Source: Burkholderiales bacterium | Lineage (GTDB): Bacteria; Pseudomonadota; Gammaproteobacteria; Burkholderiales; Casimicrobiaceae | NCBI GenBank assembly: GCA_017880805.1 | Contig: JADGRP010000127.1 | Span: forward strand, 1-38,271 | Direction: 5' to 3' | DNA: 38,271 nucleotides | Shown here: positions 5,286 through 18,455 of the stretch, one piece after another | Position numbering within the stretch: position 1 is the first letter of the stretch | Layout: each line of letters begins with the position of its first letter | Program-made: the position numbers and the translations under genes | Notes under the pieces: model-generated | The model's database searches: none | What the model was told of the DNA's origin: nothing | Seen by the model: only the letters and a program-made list of their open reading frames with translations

Positions 5286-8200
5286 ATGAGCTTCACCGAC
5301 CTTTTCATTCGCAAGCCCGTGCTTGCGATGACCATCAGCCTGCTGATCCTGGTGCTGGGCGTGCGCTCGCTGACGAGCCTTTCCGTTCGCCAGTATCCCA
5401 AGACCCAGAATGCGGTCGTGACCGTCACTACTACCTACTACGGAGCCGACGCGCAAACCGTCGCCGGCTTCATCACCCAGCCGCTCGAGGGCGCGATCGC
5501 GCAGGCGCAGGGCATCGATTATCTTTCGTCGACGAGTGTCTCCGGCGTCTCGGCGATCACCGCGACCTTGCGATTGAACTACGATGCCAACCGCGCGCTG
5601 ACCGAAATAAACACCCAGGTCAATTCGGTGCGCAACCAGTTGCCGCCGGAGGCGCAACAGCCGGTGCTGACGGTCCAGGTCGGGCAAACGATCGACGCCA
5701 TGTACATCGGCTTCTTCAGCGATGTCCTGCCCAACAACAACGTCACCGATTACCTGGTCCGGGTCGTCAAGCCCAAGCTCGATTCGGTCGAAGGCGTGCA
5801 GACGGCCGAGATTCTGGGCGCCCGGACGTTTGCATTGCGCGCGTGGCTCGATCCGACGCGGCTCGCCGCGTATGGAGTTACCGCGACCGACGTGCGCACC
5901 GCGCTCGGCAACAACAACTACCTCGCCGCGCTGGGCACGACCAAGGGCCAGATGGTCAGCGTCGACCTGACCGCGGGGACGAGCCTGCACTCGGTTGACG
6001 AGTTCAAGAAGCTCGCCGTCAAGCAGAAGGACGGCGCGATCGTGCGTCTCGAGGACGTCGCCACGGTCTCGCTGGGTGCCGAGAATTATGATTTCACGAC
6101 CGCGTTCGGCGGGCGCAACGCGGTATTCATCGGCATCAAGCCCGCTCCCGACGCCAACGTGCTGGACGTCGCGAAACGCGTCCGCGACGTGTTCCCGGCG
6201 ATCCGGGCGGAGATGCCCAACGGCGTGACCGGTGAAATCGTCTACGACGGGACAAAATTCATCACCAGCTCGATCAACGAGGTGATCAAAACCCTGATCG
6301 AATCGCTGCTCATCGTCGCCGTCGTGATTTTCCTGTTCCTGGGCAGCCTGCGCGCGGTGGTAATTCCCTTGATCGCAATGCCGCTGGCGCTGGTCGGCGC
6401 GTTCTTCGTCATGCTGATGCTGGGCTATTCGGTCAACCTGCTGACGCTGCTGGCGCTGGTGCTCGCGATTGGCCTGGTCGTCGACGATGCGATTATCGTG
6501 GTCGAGAACGTAGACCGGCACATGAAAGAGGGCATGCCGCCCATGGAAGCGTCGCTGGTCGCCGCGCGCGAGCTGGGCGGACCGATCATCGCGATGACCA
6601 TCGTCCTTGTCGCGGTGTACGTGCCGATCGGCTTTCAGGGCGGACTCACCGGTGCGCTCTTCACCGAGTTCGCGTTCACGCTCGCCGGCGCCGTAACGGT
6701 GTCGGGCATCGTCGCGCTCACCCTTTCGCCAATGATGACCTCGCGCGTTTTCCGGACCGAGCAGGAAGGCGAAAGATTCGTGCGCTTCATCGATCGTCAG
6801 TTCGAGCGCCTGCATCACGGGTATCAGCGTTTTCTGCACAGCATGCTCAATACCTGGTCCGTGCCGGTGGTCATGGGGCTGATTCTGCTCGGCGGCGTCG
6901 TGTATCTGTTCAATACCTCGAAGTCCGAGCTCGCACCCCTGGAAGACCAGGGCGTCGTGCTGTCACAGATCATCGGCCCGCCCAACGCAACGTCACAGCA
7001 AATGGATGCGTATGCCAAGCAGGTGTTCGATATTGCGCACGAACTTCCTGAATACGATCAGATGTTTCAGATCACCGGCGTGCCCACGACCAACCAGGGT
7101 TTCGGCGGCGTGCTGTTCAAGCCATGGAATGAACGCTCGAAAAGCGCCGCGCAGCTTCAGCAGGAACTGCAGACTAAGTGGAACGGCATCGCCGGCGCGC
7201 GCGTCGCCGCGTTCCAGTTTCCGCCACTGCCAGGGTCGCAGGGTCTTCCCATGCAGTTCATCATCAAGACCACCGAGCCGTATCAGAACCTGAACGAGGT
7301 CACCCAGGCGGTCCTGCAGAAAGCGCAGGCCAGCGGCATGTTCTTTTTTGTCGACACCGATCTCAAGGTGGACAAGCCGCAGACCACCGTCGAAGTCGAT
7401 CGCGACCTCGTCGCCACGCTGGGGCTGACGCAACAGGATGTCGGCGCAGCGCTGGGCGCAGCGCTGGGGGGAGGATACGTCAATTACTTCTCGATCGCCG
7501 GGCGGTCCTACAAGGTGATCCCGCAGGTGCTGCAGACGGACCGGCTGAACGCCGACCAGATCCTCGACTACCATATCCGCACCGCGGACGGATCGCTGGT
7601 TCCCGCGTCCACGGTTGCCCATCAAAAGACCGCGGTCGTGCCGGAAGGCATTGCGCACTTTCAGCAGCTCAACTCGTCGACCATCTTCGGCGTGTATTCG
7701 CCAGCGGTTTCACAGAATCAGGTTCTCGATTTCATGCGGCAAGCGCTGGCCGAGGTCGCGCCGACCGGTTATTCGGTCGACTACTCGGGCGTATCCCGTC
7801 AGTTCGTTCAAGAATCGGGCGGCTTCGCGGTGACTTTGCTGTTCGCGATGATCATCGTTTTTCTGGCGCTCGCCGCGCAGTTCGAAAGTTTCCGGGATCC
7901 GATTGTTATCCTGGTGTCGGTGCCGATGGCGTTGTTCGGAGCGCTGATCTTCATCAACCTGGGCTTCTCGACCCTGAACATCTACACCCAGGTCGGGCTG
8001 GTCACCTTGATGGGGCTGATCAGCAAGCACGGCATCCTGATCGTGCAGTTTGCCAACCAGCTCCAGCGCGCCGGCAGGACCAAGCGCGAGGCCATCGAAG
8101 AGGCCGCCGCGGTGCGGCTGCGGCCAATCCTGATGACCACCGCGGCGATGGTGCTCGGCGTGGTGCCACTCGTGATCGCAGCAGGCGCAGGCGCCGCGGG

Positions 8201-8357
8201 CCGACACGCGATGGGCCTCGTGATCTTCAGCGGCCTGTCGATCGGAACGCTGTTCACGCTATTCGTCGTACCTGCGGTGTACATGTTGTTGGCCGCCGAC
8301 CATCACGAGCAAGCAAGCAGCGCGAGCGCCAGCAGCGTAGTACCCGCGGAGGGTTGA
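5286..8357 (+). CDS. RND multidrug efflux pump, inner-membrane permease (AcrB family)
   Basis: This 1023-residue protein has the standard length for AcrB-type proton antiporters: twelve membrane helices and two large periplasmic loops. It opens with FTDLFIRKPVLAMTISLLI, the family's first helix. Helix 4 carries GLVVDDAIIVVENV with the paired proton-relay aspartates at residues 400-401. The second half repeats the plan, with FAMIIVFLALAAQFESFRDP and GLVTLMGLISKHGILIVQFAN. Trimers would take drugs, solvents or other amphiphiles from the periplasm and pass them to the channel through the adaptor encoded just upstream. The substrate range cannot be read from sequence. The operon ends here and faces the oppositely oriented urt operon across 317 bases. 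Confidence 0.92.
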   Translation: MSFTDLFIRKPVLAMTISLLILVLGVRSLTSLSVRQYPKTQNAVVTVTTTYYGADAQTVAGFITQPLEGAIAQAQGIDYLSSTSVSGVSAITATLRLNYDANRALTEINTQVNSVRNQLPPEAQQPVLTVQVGQTIDAMYIGFFSDVLPNNNVTDYLVRVVKPKLDSVEGVQTAEILGARTFALRAWLDPTRLAAYGVTATDVRTALGNNNYLAALGTTKGQMVSVDLTAGTSLHSVDEFKKLAVKQKDGAIVRLEDVATVSLGAENYDFTTAFGGRNAVFIGIKPAPDANVLDVAKRVRDVFPAIRAEMPNGVTGEIVYDGTKFITSSINEVIKTLIESLLIVAVVIFLFLGSLRAVVIPLIAMPLALVGAFFVMLMLGYSVNLLTLLALVLAIGLVVDDAIIVVENVDRHMKEGMPPMEASLVAARELGGPIIAMTIVLVAVYVPIGFQGGLTGALFTEFAFTLAGAVTVSGIVALTLSPMMTSRVFRTEQEGERFVRFIDRQFERLHHGYQRFLHSMLNTWSVPVVMGLILLGGVVYLFNTSKSELAPLEDQGVVLSQIIGPPNATSQQMDAYAKQVFDIAHELPEYDQMFQITGVPTTNQGFGGVLFKPWNERSKSAAQLQQELQTKWNGIAGARVAAFQFPPLPGSQGLPMQFIIKTTEPYQNLNEVTQAVLQKAQASGMFFFVDTDLKVDKPQTTVEVDRDLVATLGLTQQDVGAALGAALGGGYVNYFSIAGRSYKVIPQVLQTDRLNADQILDYHIRTADGSLVPASTVAHQKTAVVPEGIAHFQQLNSSTIFGVYSPAVSQNQVLDFMRQALAEVAPTGYSVDYSGVSRQFVQESGGFAVTLLFAMIIVFLALAAQFESFRDPIVILVSVPMALFGALIFINLGFSTLNIYTQVGLVTLMGLISKHGILIVQFANQLQRAGRTKREAIEEAAAVRLRPILMTTAAMVLGVVPLVIAAGAGAAGRHAMGLVIFSGLSIGTLFTLFVVPAVYMLLAADHHEQASSASASSVVPAEG

Positions 8358-8406
8358 GCTTCGGCAGCGTGTGCCCTGCTCCGGCGCTGCGGTGACGTAT
8401 CGCGGC

Positions 8407-8419
8407 GCGTGACTCACGC
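8407..8419. promoter_or_regulatory. Palindrome upstream of the orphan sigma-54 site, possible activator site
   Basis: GCGTGA-C-TCACGC is a perfect 6+1+6 palindrome. Its centre lies about 107 bases before the predicted start of the sigma-54 promoter at 8494-8509, in the usual range for binding of enhancer-binding proteins. The match in position is the only evidence. Confidence 0.3.
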
Positions 8420-8493
8420 AGAAGCCGCGCGCGAGTGCCGCTCGATGCGCGTTTCCCTAAGCAGGCGCGGAACATTTCGCCCCGGCACAACTC

Positions 8494-8509
8494 TGGCACG
8501 CTGCTTGCT
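8494..8509 (+). promoter_or_regulatory. Perfect sigma-54 (-24/-12) promoter motif with no known gene downstream
   Basis: TGGCACGCTGCTTGCT matches the RpoN consensus TGGCACG-N4-TTGCW at every defined position, with GG and GC twelve bases apart. Transcription would start near 8520 and run on the + strand through the gap and antisense into urtE. No annotated gene on this strand could be its target. Confidence 0.55.
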
Positions 8510-8674
8510 CATACACGGAGTGCCCGGACGGGGCGGCGCTCCCTTGGTTTACTCCTCGCCCTTCGTGCCGTCTCGCTCCGGGACCAGATATCTTTTCTCG
8601 CTCGCCAGCCTCGTGTGGCGCGCGACAGCGCCAAGTCCTTCGCGGCCACGCCGCAGTCAGGCCGCAGTTAACAA

Positions 8675-9367
8675 CTACACGGCAAGATGCGCGCGAACAT
8701 TGTCACGATCCATGTCCGCGCCCAAGCCTTTCGCGACGACTTCCCCGCGCGATAAGACGACATAATGATCGGCGAGCGATTTGGCGAAATCGTAGTATTG
8801 CTCGACCAGCAGAATCGCGATGTCGCCTGCGGCGACGAGGCTGCGGATGGCGCGCTCGATGTCCTTGATGATCGATGGCTGGATGCCTTCTGTCGGCTCG
8901 TCCAGGATCAACAGCCGCGGTCGCATGGCCAGCGCGCGTCCGATGGCAAGCTGCTGCTGTTGACCGCCTGACAGATCGCCTCCCCGGCGGTTCAGCATCT
9001 GCTTCAGCACCGGAAACATGTCGAAGATGAAGTCAGGAACCTTGGCGCCGCTTTTCTTGGAGGCCAATCCCATCTCCAGATTTTCCATCACCGACAGCCG
9101 CGGGAAGATGTCCCGACCCTGCGGCACATAGCCGATACCCAGCGCCGCGCGCGCATACGGCGGCAGATTTGCGATGCTCACCCCGTTAAAGCCGATCTTC
9201 CCCGACCGCATCGGAAGCACGCCCATCAAGCACTTGAGCAGCGTTGTCTTGCCCACGCCATTGCGGCCGAGCAGTGCGGTTAATGCTCCGGCGGGAACGT
9301 CGAAGGCGACGTCGCGCAGCGTATGGCTGCCGCCGTAGTACTGATTGAGTCCCTGCACGGCCAGCAT
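8675..9367 (-). CDS. urtE: Urea ABC transporter ATP-binding protein UrtE
   Basis: This 230-residue ABC ATPase is the LivF-type subunit of the urea importer. Visible motifs are Walker A GRNGVGKT at residues 34-41, the signature LSGGQQQQ from 132, and Walker B LLILDEP from 152 with EG following as usual. LNQYYGGSHTLRDVAFDV at the start is close to the UrtE family pattern. It pairs with UrtD to drive the UrtB-UrtC permease. It is the last gene of urtABCDE and starts two bases after the urtD stop, so translation is likely coupled. No T-rich terminator is evident downstream. Confidence 0.93.
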   Translation of the reverse strand: MLAVQGLNQYYGGSHTLRDVAFDVPAGALTALLGRNGVGKTTLLKCLMGVLPMRSGKIGFNGVSIANLPPYARAALGIGYVPQGRDIFPRLSVMENLEMGLASKKSGAKVPDFIFDMFPVLKQMLNRRGGDLSGGQQQQLAIGRALAMRPRLLILDEPTEGIQPSIIKDIERAIRSLVAAGDIAILLVEQYYDFAKSLADHYVVLSRGEVVAKGLGADMDRDNVRAHLAV

Positions 9368-9369
9368 CT

Positions 9370-10194
9370 TCAGCGCCCGAGAAACACTTCGATGACCTGC
9401 TCGTTCTGCTGGATCTGGTCCATCGTTCCTTCAGCGAGCACACCTCCTTCATGAAGCACGGTGACCTTATGCGCGATGCGCTTGACGAATGCCATATCGT
9501 GCTCGACGACGATCAGCGTGTATTTTCCGGCCAGCGAAAGAAAAAGCTCGGCGCTGCGCATCGACTCGTCGTCGGTCATGCCGGCCACCGGCTCGTCGAG
9601 AAGGAGCAGCTGCGGCTCCTGCATGAGCAGCATGCCGATTTCGAGCCATTGCTTCTGCCCATGCGACAAGAGCCCGGCCGGACGCGATGCCTCGGGCAGC
9701 AGCTTGATCGTTTCCATCGTTGCGCCGATGCGATCGCGTGCGCCGGAATCCAGCCGCGCGCGCAGCGTCGGCCAGACGCGTTTGTCGCATTTCTGCGCGA
9801 GCTCCAGATTTTCGAACACCGTGTGGTGCTCGAACACTGTGGGTTTCTGAAACTTGCGGCCGATGCCCGCGGTGGCGATTTCGGCTTCGGTAAAGCGCGT
9901 GAGATCGATCGTCTGCCCGAAAAACGCGCTGCCCGTGTCCGGCCGCGTCTTGCCGGTGATCACGTCCATCATCGTCGTTTTGCCGGCGCCGTTCGGACCG
10001 ATGACGCAGCGAAGCTCTCCGGCGTCGATCAGCAGCGACAGCGCATTGAGCGCCTTGAATCCGTCGAAGCTCACCGAGATGGCGTCGAGATAGAGGATGC
10101 CCGTGTGCGAGGTGTCGACGCCGGTCGTCAACACCCGCACGCCCGACGCCGCCCCGGCGTCATCCCAGTTCTGCCGCGCGATGATCGCGTTCAC
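9370..10194 (-). CDS. urtD: Urea ABC transporter ATP-binding protein UrtD
   Basis: This 274-residue LivG-type ABC ATPase has Walker A GPNGAGKT at residues 66-73, Walker B LLLLDEPVAGM, and the unusual signature LSHGQKQWLEIGMLL typical of UrtD. GRKFQKPTVFEHHTVFENLELA is also family-specific. About 35 residues precede the first conserved strand (LYLDAISVSFDGF), a common UrtD extension. The start codon is GTG at 10194, four bases after the urtC stop. It acts on the cytoplasmic face of the inner membrane with UrtE to power urea uptake. Confidence 0.93.
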   Translation of the reverse strand: MNAIIARQNWDDAGAASGVRVLTTGVDTSHTGILYLDAISVSFDGFKALNALSLLIDAGELRCVIGPNGAGKTTMMDVITGKTRPDTGSAFFGQTIDLTRFTEAEIATAGIGRKFQKPTVFEHHTVFENLELAQKCDKRVWPTLRARLDSGARDRIGATMETIKLLPEASRPAGLLSHGQKQWLEIGMLLMQEPQLLLLDEPVAGMTDDESMRSAELFLSLAGKYTLIVVEHDMAFVKRIAHKVTVLHEGGVLAEGTMDQIQQNEQVIEVFLGR

Positions 10195-16709: not shown

Positions 16710-18455
16710 TCAAAACAGAAAGTATCGCTGTGCCATCGGCAGCACCTTGGAGGGTTCGCACGTCAGCAACACGCCGTCGGCGCGCACCGCGTAGGTTTCG
16801 GGATCGACGTCGATCGCGGGCAAAGCGTCGTTGAGCCTCATGTCGCGCTTGCCGAGCTTTCGGGTGTTGGATACGGCAATCAGCGGCTTGGTCAGCCCGA
16901 GCTTGGCGATCGCGCTGCTGTTCAGCGCAGCCTGTGACACGAACGTCACCGAGGTCTGCAGCGCCTTGCCGAACGCGCCGAACATGGGCCGGTAATGCAC
17001 GGGCTGCGGCGTTGGAATCGAAGCGTTCGGGTCACCCATCGCGGCCGCGGCAATCATCCCGCCTTTGACGATCAGCGACGGCTTGACCCCGAAGAATGCG
17101 GGCTTCCACAACACCAGGTCGGCGATTTTTCCGACTTCGATCGATCCTACGACATGCCCGATACCGTTGGCGATCGCGGGGTTGATGGTGTACTTCGCGA
17201 TGTAGCGCTTGACACGAAAATTGTCGTTCCGCGAGTTCTCCTGCGCGGCATCGCCGCTGCCTGCCCTCTCCGATTGCGAAGCAGAAGCGGGTCCAAGCCA
17301 GCCGCGTTGCACCTTCATCTTGTGCGCGGTTTGCCAGGTCCGGATGATCACTTCGCCCACGCGTCCCATCGCCTGCGAGTCCGACGAGATCATCGAAAAC
17401 GCACCCAAATCGTGAAGGATGTCCTCTGCGGCGATCGTCTCGCGGCGAATGCGCGATTCGGCGAAAGCGATGTCCTCCGCAATCGCGGGGTCGAGATGAT
17501 GGCAGACCATCAGCATGTCGAGATGCTCGTCGATGGTGTTGACCGTGTACGGACGCGTTGGATTGGTCGACGAGGGAAGGACGTTCGGCTCACCGCACGC
17601 CTTGATGATGTCCGGTGCGTGACCGCCGCCGGCGCCCTCGGTGTGGTAGGTATGAATCGTGCGGCCGCCGATCGCGGCCAGCGTCGTCTCCACGAAGCCG
17701 GACTCGTTGAGCGTATCGGTATGGATCGACACCTGGATGTCCATCGAGTCGCCGACCTTCAACGCCGCGTCGATCGCCGCCGGCGTCGTGCCCCAGTCCT
17801 CGTGCAGCTTGAGGCCGATGGCGCCGGCATCGATCTGTTCGACCAGCGGCGGCGTCAGGCTCGCGTTGCCTTTGCCGAGAAAACCGAGGTTCATCGGAAA
17901 GGCTTCGGCGGCCTCGAGCATGCGGTGCAAATGCCACGGGCCCGGCGTGCACGTGGTCGCGAAGGTGCCGGTCGCCGGCCCGGTCCCGCCGCCGATCATG
18001 GTGGTGACGCCCGACATCAGCGCCTCGTCGATTTGCTGCGGGCAGATGAAGTGGATGTGAGTGTCGATGCCGCCGGCGGTCACGATCATGCCCTCGCCGG
18101 CAATGATCTCCGTGCCTGCGCCAATGACGATGTCGACGCCGGGCTGGATGTCCGGGTTGCCCGCCTTGCCCAGCGCGGCGATCCTACCGTCCTTGAGCGC
18201 GATGTCGCATTTGACGATGCCCCACCAGTCGATCACGAGCGCATTCGTGATCACCGTGTCGGCGCAGTCTTTGGACACCCGCTGGCTCTGCCCCATGCCG
18301 TCGCGAATGACCTTGCCACCGCCGAACTTGACCTCCTCGCCGTAGACCGTGAAATCCTTTTCGACCTCGACGATGAGCTCGGTGTCGGCAAGACGCACCC
18401 GGTCGCCGGTCGTGGGACCGAACATTTCGACATAGGCGCGGCGATCGATCTTCAT
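16710..18455 (-). CDS. ureC: Urease alpha subunit UreC, with an extra loop
   Basis: This 581-residue catalytic subunit hydrolyses urea to ammonia and carbamate at a dinuclear nickel site. All active-site residues are present: H133 and H135 (HIHF), carbamylated K216 (GLKLHEDWG), H245 (HTDT), H271 ([13 protein letters not shown]), the mobile-flap C318 and H319 (MVCHHLD), and D359 (SSDSQAMGR). The C-terminus MAQRYFLF is the family end. Most bacterial UreC chains are about 567-573 residues; the excess is at about 386-409, between KVQRG and NDNFRVKRY, where roughly 16 extra polar residues sit. The ATG overlaps the ureB stop by four bases. Confidence 0.97.

Follow-up and report, generated by a model that had tools for sequence, protein, structure and literature searches.

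A sigma-54 promoter without a gene, and the undescribed small regulatory RNA that it probably makes in a single genus of uncultured bacteria

What does a perfect sigma-54 promoter drive when no gene lies in front of it? Such a site was found in the window, the whole 38,271-nt stretch of DNA analysed here, in a gap towards which two genes converge. A sequence-only reading of this DNA had suggested a nitrogen-regulated antisense or small RNA that tunes urea uptake, or the leftover promoter of a lost gene. Perfect sigma-54 sites remote from genes are usually dismissed as chance; here one appears to mark a conserved structured RNA. Comparison of related genomes indicates that the promoter probably makes an undescribed small regulatory RNA, not an antisense RNA for urea uptake. 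The element seen here provides a starting point for studying sigma-54 regulation in a betaproteobacterial lineage that is uncultured.

The promoter and the hairpin behind it

The gap and its neighbours contain the following features.

5286..8357, + strand: RND-type efflux permease gene (full-length NCBIfam RND permease matches, under the curated cut-offs)
8494..8509, + strand: sigma-54 (-24/-12) promoter TGGCACGCTGCTTGCT (exact consensus; TGGCA and TTGC invariant in 7/7 genus loci)
8520, + strand: predicted transcription start (12 nt past the -12 C at 8508, from sigma-54 geometry)
8523..8582, + strand: conserved hairpin of 60 nt, the proposed sRNA body (identity, consensus fold, z-scores)
8551..8565, + strand: invariant loop segment ACTCCTCGCCCTTCG with an anti-Shine-Dalgarno-like CUCCUC (15/15 bases identical in 7/7)
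8675..9367, - strand: urtE, the convergent neighbour (TIGR03410, 337.9 bits, cut-off 285.8)

The perfect match claimed by the sequence-only reading was confirmed: the -24 GG and -12 GC elements are present at fixed spacing, and a pattern search revealed TGGCACGCTGCTTGCT as the sole exact match to TGGCACN5TTGCW in the window. A perfect consensus match is by itself weak evidence. The genome contains eight exact matches, as compared with two for a reversed control pattern, and at least two of the other seven (L001 and L004) lie within long open frames. When one mismatch was allowed, 33 of 100 window shuffles reached or exceeded the match count of the window. The eight genomic matches, with at least two inside long frames, would suit a leftover promoter or a chance consensus match. 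The site rises above chance, however, because the same site occurs at the same position before the same hairpin in 7/7 genomes of the genus. The genus consensus was TGGCA(C/T)N5TTGC(T/A), in which TGGCA and TTGC are invariant and N5 is variable, and rpoN (PF04552) is encoded in all seven genomes. Transcription from sigma-54 promoters starts about 12 nt after the C at -12.

The DNA of the gap was used for a similarity search of 60 genomes including its own, and 18 matched. All six other genomes of the genus were among them, and in five of the six the match was confined to gap bases 163-229 (about 8520-8586 of the window), just past the predicted start. The remaining 11 genomes gave short matches only, at E 3e-4 or worse (12 rows, including a second match in G004). 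Since the matching stretch of five relatives lay wholly downstream of the promoter, conservation of the promoter is an independent result. In this sample of seven genomes from one genus, mostly fragmented assemblies, the mean pairwise identity (21 pairs, 7 loci) was 85% in the hairpin (minimum 77%), 79% in the promoter and 46% in the spacer, with 57% in the upstream and 53% in the downstream flank; the corresponding shuffled controls gave 57, 56, 36, 53, and 50%. The sequence past the hairpin is thus at background identity. The distance from the -12 C to the stem was 13-14 nt in all seven genomes. As judged from these alignments, the identity pattern is the footprint that a promoter leaves together with its product. 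The sequence-only reading had called for such an alignment of the gap across relatives; the sigma-54 motif and the downstream hairpin were kept in 7/7, which supports its small-RNA possibility and goes against its leftover promoter of a lost gene. With promoter and hairpin conserved in every genome while the flanks drift, a leftover or chance site is barely credible.

In alignment A1, the mean column identity of the hairpin was 83%, and the consensus fold contained 17 main-stem pairs and a loop of ~25 nt. The folding energy gave z-scores of -2.0 to -4.5 against shuffles across the seven loci. Since transcription is predicted to start at ~8520, the hairpin would lie at the 5' end of the RNA with 2-3 free bases before the stem. 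A 5'-end hairpin had been placed at 8517-8542 from the sequence alone; a hairpin is indeed there, but those limits begin before the predicted start, and the conserved, predicted fold spans 8523-8582. The one-hairpin architecture is conserved and the sequence beyond it is not. The covariation score was 0.124 as compared with 0.119 in shuffles and was reached by 177 of 500 shuffles, which is not significant, and paired cells (94.2% against 93.7% in shuffles, 181/500) showed no excess over controls. Changes on both sides were found for two pairs, a count reached by 42 of 500 shuffles and also obtained when the structure was slid by -3; a second count in the consensus fold gave one pair. Ten of the 17 main-stem pairs never vary. 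The argument for an RNA draws on its location downstream of the promoter, the invariance of the loop and the fold.

No U-tract terminator was found after the hairpin, and the sole terminator-like site was a 5-pair stem inside it. The lack of a terminator, as well as a + strand open frame that continues past the hairpin in G005 and G002, would fit a hairpin that serves as the 5' leader of a longer mRNA and regulates it in cis. However, the downstream frames differ among the genomes or face the opposite way, and the downstream identity is at background, so that a leader is very unlikely.

The long GC-rich inverted repeat could also belong to a DNA-level element, such as a protein-bound palindrome, a recombination site or a mobile repeat, and one frame through the hairpin is open in most genomes of the genus, as would be expected of a small protein gene. 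A protein-coding reading was rejected: indels in L009 and L015 put the open frame out of register with the other loci, TAA immediately precedes the frame in L013, the loci have no conserved start codon, and within the loop segment third codon positions are invariant. As for a DNA element, one copy was found in the own genome, the exact loop complement occurs once per genome, plasmid and phage records gave no match, and the distance to the sigma-54 promoter is nearly constant. We consider both a DNA element and a small protein gene highly improbable.

The neighbouring genes and urea uptake

The site had been described as lying between converging genes, and this proved correct: the gap (8358-8674) separates the RND-type permease gene from urtE. 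The RND gene ends just upstream of the promoter in five of the seven genomes and was absent from the available upstream sequence of G001 (641 nt) and G004 (858 nt). The near end of urtE lies 184 nt from the first base of the promoter in the window, 120 nt in G004, 867 nt in G003, 1354 nt in G001, and 2864 nt in G006; the G005 contig ends 894 nt past the promoter. In G002 (57-kb contig), the 19.1 kb downstream contained no urt protein match above 55% identity. Open frames intervene between the element and urtE in at least two genomes, G003 and G006; read by eye, we take them to encode a DUF4124 protein and hemN, respectively. The gene surroundings thus differ between genomes, whereas promoter, spacing, hairpin and loop stay together in 7/7.

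These distances bear on the claim that the transcript runs antisense into urtE and tunes urea uptake. A cis-antisense RNA would be consistent with the convergent order in the window and four relatives and with the 120-184 nt that separate promoter and urtE in two genomes. In three others the distance is far greater, in G002 the gene was not found in the 19.1 kb covered, and nothing is conserved between the hairpin and urtE, where identity is at background. Because the distance varies, and because urtE was not found in the stretch covered in G002, antisense control of urea uptake is not a conserved role of the element, and we give this explanation very little credence.

A second sigma-54 type site, driving urt from the other side, had also been claimed. 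It is present but weaker, with two mismatches to TGGCACN5TTGC.

14458-14443, - strand: weaker sigma-54-like site TGGCATGGATTGTGCG, ~100 nt before the likely urtA start

An NtrC-like sequence (3 mismatches) lies further upstream of TGGCATGGATTGTGCG, and the two would fit ordinary nitrogen control of urt. Rfam RF02514 (5' ureB antisense sRNA) matched the window at 18025-18306 (+) with 109 bits, opposite a 581-aa frame at 16710-18455 (-), presumably urease UreC. This match is probably due to conservation of the coding sequence and not to a second RNA.

The loop, its possible targets and its activator

Taken together, the alignments make it likely that 8494-8509 is the working promoter of a sigma-54-dependent, trans-acting sRNA with a predicted anti-Shine-Dalgarno loop. 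An enhancer-binding protein would open the sigma-54 RNA polymerase, and transcription would start at ~8520. The 5' end of the RNA would fold at once into a GC-rich stem (8523-8582) that holds up the ~25-nt loop. The C-rich loop of the window element is ACUCCUCGCCCUUCG, and its CUCCUC resembles the end of 16S rRNA. This loop may pair with purine-rich, GAGGAG-type ribosome-binding sites of mRNAs made elsewhere and would thereby lower the translation of these targets, as anti-Shine-Dalgarno sRNAs do. Pairing with ribosome-binding sites is proposed by analogy with the alpha-r14 sRNAs and with a Campylobacter sRNA that has a putative anti-Shine-Dalgarno motif.

Targets were searched for with strict complements, a scope that lies outside the 7-9 nt seeds usual for sRNAs. 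Each of the seven genomes has a single exact copy of the 13-nt loop complement AAGGGCGAGGAGT, which lies at the element. Places with one mismatch numbered 44, as compared with 30 for the reversed control, and no target was found among them; 21 of 23 such places that were read lie in sense-strand open stretches of more than 150 codons. A loop complement together with ATG was found at 17 places in six of the seven genomes, none of them recurring by eye. Duplexes were also predicted for candidate gene starts in the window, taken from 30 mechanically called open frames, with background levels of -18.8 (5%) and -22.4 (1%). The starts at 10131, 10134, 10140, and 9358 in the urt region pass the 5% level but not the 1% level, and those at 18278 and 29620 pass the 1% level. 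Since many starts were tried, nothing follows from these predictions.

CUCCUC loops were found behind other sigma-54 sites. When 64 genomes of the family were searched for a sigma-54 site followed after 30-60 nt by CTCCTCG, 13 rows from 11 genomes were obtained, and seven of them were the element in the seven genomes of the genus. Two of the other six rows are loci, L033 (G003:C39) and L036 (G005:C109), in which sigma-54 sites are followed by hairpins with CUCCUC loops. The presence of CTCCTCG in these two loci is due to selection by the search pattern, whereas its placing in hairpin loops is not.

L033 1501-1606, G003: candidate RNA, perfect sigma-54 site TGGCACATGACTTGCT followed by two hairpins
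L036 1501-1596, G005: candidate RNA, sigma-54 site TGGCATGCTGCTTGCG, then a hairpin whose loop includes the segment CCCCCCUCCUCG

The hairpin loops of L033 carry CCUCCUCCUC and CCCUCCUCC, and the second stem is followed by CUUUGU. Its fold gave a z-score of -4.87, and none of 200 shuffles folded as well. Counted from the first base of the promoter, the nearest long frames called mechanically stop 121 nt upstream on one side and start 226 nt downstream on the other, and shorter frames (93 codons) overlap. The Rfam model ar14 scored 23.8 bits against L033 (E 0.23), below its cut-off of 58.8. We regard L033 as a candidate for a second, alpha-r14-like RNA of the genus. The fold of L036 gave a z-score of -3.35 and left four of the six CUCCUC bases unpaired; model R1 matched it with 19.3 bits (E 0.02 in 38 kb), and shorter frames overlap it on both strands. 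L036 is a possible paralogue of the window element. Both were seen in one genome each. Among 42 loci that were folded, 33 were neither the element nor L033 or L036, and one of these 33, L057, comes near, with its CUCCUC unpaired inside 12 enclosing pairs and a z-score of -2.9.

The recurrence of CUCCUC loops in L033 and L036 favours an anti-Shine-Dalgarno function. The genus may even have a whole set of such RNAs, each stand-alone, sigma-54-driven and equipped with anti-Shine-Dalgarno loops, comprising the single-hairpin RNA of the window (7/7), the double-hairpin, alpha-r14-like L033 and the R1-like L036, which would jointly brake the translation of GAGGAG-type mRNAs when the activator fires; we offer this tentatively, as somewhat less probable than its absence. 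If true, this would give the rhizobial anti-Shine-Dalgarno sRNAs a counterpart that is switched by sigma-54 and not bound to any one partner gene. A promoter without a gene, combined with a phylogenetic footprint, looks like a cheap route to more such RNAs; L033 and L036 came from the same pattern search.

The own genome encodes four full sigma-54 enhancer-binding proteins. The first is NtrC, above the NCBIfam cut-offs; the second is closest to GlrR (644.6 bits, below the cut-off of 763); the third, with AtoC as best NCBIfam match below cut-off, is read as PilR-like; and the fourth has ntrC as best match, below cut-off, and no clear name. Five more PF00158 matches of 25-30 bits (Pfam cut-off 20.2) were taken for other AAA proteins. 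Binding sites were scanned for with NtrC and GlrR consensuses. Within 400 nt upstream, none of the seven promoters has an NtrC-type site with fewer than three mismatches; the best per locus had 3-5. The best GlrR-type matches had 1-3 mismatches at scattered places, none common to the loci; the one with a single mismatch was in L012. The supposed nitrogen regulation stays a conjecture: NtrC and RpoN are encoded, but no such NtrC-type site was seen, and the genome has three other full activators. Two sequences lie upstream of the promoter where an activator might bind.

8392..8408, + strand: candidate activator box GTGACGTATCGCGGCGC, a lead (RTGACG in 6/7 loci)
8407..8419, no strand: palindrome GCGTGACTCACGC of the sequence-only reading (exact sequence in the own genome only, among the 7 loci)

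In six of the seven loci RTGACG occurs upstream, 58-102 nt from where the promoter begins; it was chosen post hoc. The palindrome exists, but as an activator site it found no support, its exact sequence occurring in none of the loci of the six relatives. Motif finding upstream, compared with 60 shuffles, was dominated by GCGGCG and was not decisive. A dyad, GTGACGCGNCGCGTCRC, was rejected: with two mismatches it was no commoner in the seven genomes than a reversed control, and among the matches listed, the one exact place was the element of G001, the source of the dyad itself.

The conserved loop might instead bind a protein or another RNA, not ribosome-binding sites, so that the RNA would act as a decoy, as GlmY does for RapZ. 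The strict complement searches gave no mRNA target, an invariant loop on a single long stem fits a protein-binding site, and the genome encodes the GlrR-closest protein; according to the available part of PMC7073468, GlrR/QseF drives GlmY in E. coli. On the other hand, CUCCUC loops recur in L033 and L036, no Rfam match was found at the element in the seven loci, and no GlrR-type site is common to them. A decoy is thus unlikely, and pairing of the loop with ribosome-binding sites remains our preferred proposal.

Relation to known RNAs and distribution

Stand-alone sRNA genes with sigma-54 promoters are known, namely Qrr, CrcZ and NrsZ. GlmY of E. coli, as presented in the accessible portion of PMC7073468, is another such gene. 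The present element resembles them in this respect but differs from GlmY, Qrr, CrcZ and NrsZ in that it had no Rfam match in the seven loci and that no terminator was seen. From these comparisons, it is apparently a new RNA family of a known kind, the sigma-54-driven small RNAs.

The loop has counterparts elsewhere. In the rhizobial NfeR1/alpha-r14 RNAs, an ultraconserved C-rich anti-Shine-Dalgarno motif is unpaired while the stems vary; these RNAs act in trans and are linked to nitrogen regulation, and NfeR1 silences ntrBC (PMC10746234, available part). They differ in that their motif is CCUCCUCCC, set in three hairpins, with a sigma-70 site (same part of PMC10746234), whereas the window element has one hairpin, CUCCUCGCCC and a sigma-54 promoter; the CCUCCUCCC motif and three hairpins were not found in it. 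L033, with its subthreshold ar14 score, is closer to alpha-r14 than the window element is. CJnc230/FlmE of Campylobacter jejuni is an RpoN-dependent sRNA of less than 100 nt with a single-stranded, putative anti-Shine-Dalgarno motif, but it is mainly processed from flgE mRNA and has in addition an RpoD promoter of its own (PMC11187230, as far as accessible). The element described here, compared with it by description, not by sequence, has its own sigma-54 promoter and no gene ahead of it in the transcript. S17 of Bordetella and the related bdhR1 (RF02278) of Burkholderia are betaproteobacterial sRNAs with a highly conserved pairing segment; S17, however, is transcribed from a housekeeping promoter, RNase E generates its abundant form, and conservation of its segment extends throughout the class (PMC11722255, accessible part). 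RF02278 matched none of the seven loci.

In none of the seven loci did the element score above the gathering threshold of a family of Rfam 15, which includes RF02278 and RF02344; the sole matches in these loci were 5_ureB, far off in the window, and a tRNA in L013. A literature search returned no description of this RNA, and a search for the string CUCCUCGCCC gave papers on plants or human disease, judged by their titles. PMC7011215 is a paper on small RNAs predicted in the betaproteobacterium Herbaspirillum seropedicae.

When 150 of 1266 candidates in the own genome were scored with model R1, one matched. Among 399 genomes of the order, the own included, the model matched the own genome only, which is weak since 12 candidates were scored per genome in the rows listed. 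In 14 genomes of the family (150 candidates each) there were five matches with a best E of 0.115, none directly preceded by TGGCN7TTGC; one of these loci, L159, has two TGGCN7TTGC sites elsewhere. The pattern of a sigma-54 site and CTCCTCG matched 47 of the 399 order genomes and, by eye, the element in the own genome only. Plasmid and phage records contained nothing matching the element, and a viral scan gave one chance match. An exact-loop scan (CGCT plus loop bait) of one genome per species in 84,980 species, a set that may omit records close to that of the window, found 34 loci. Six of them have TGGCN7TTGC upstream and a long hairpin and are the six relatives, and 28 have no such upstream site. 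To date, the element is thus known from a single genus of uncultured bacteria. The six relatives are metagenome assemblies titled 'Betaproteobacteria bacterium': five belong to a BP_ series labelled with depths in centimetres, taken by us to mean soil, and one is labelled 'palsa', presumably permafrost peat.

When 8480-8640 was scanned permissively against Rfam, two miRNA models and narK RNA came up, all far below threshold. The consensus of the latter (RF03032, aligned to 8495-8539 of the window) begins with GGCaCAgcucUUGCU, which resembles a sigma-54 -24/-12 promoter, and this model may include promoter DNA. Two further perfect sigma-54 sites in the own genome, L003 and L008, look functional: one is located after a GlrR-like gene and before a frame starting MDKYSPEFSAYW, and the other precedes a small protein starting MSIGTILLIILILALVG.
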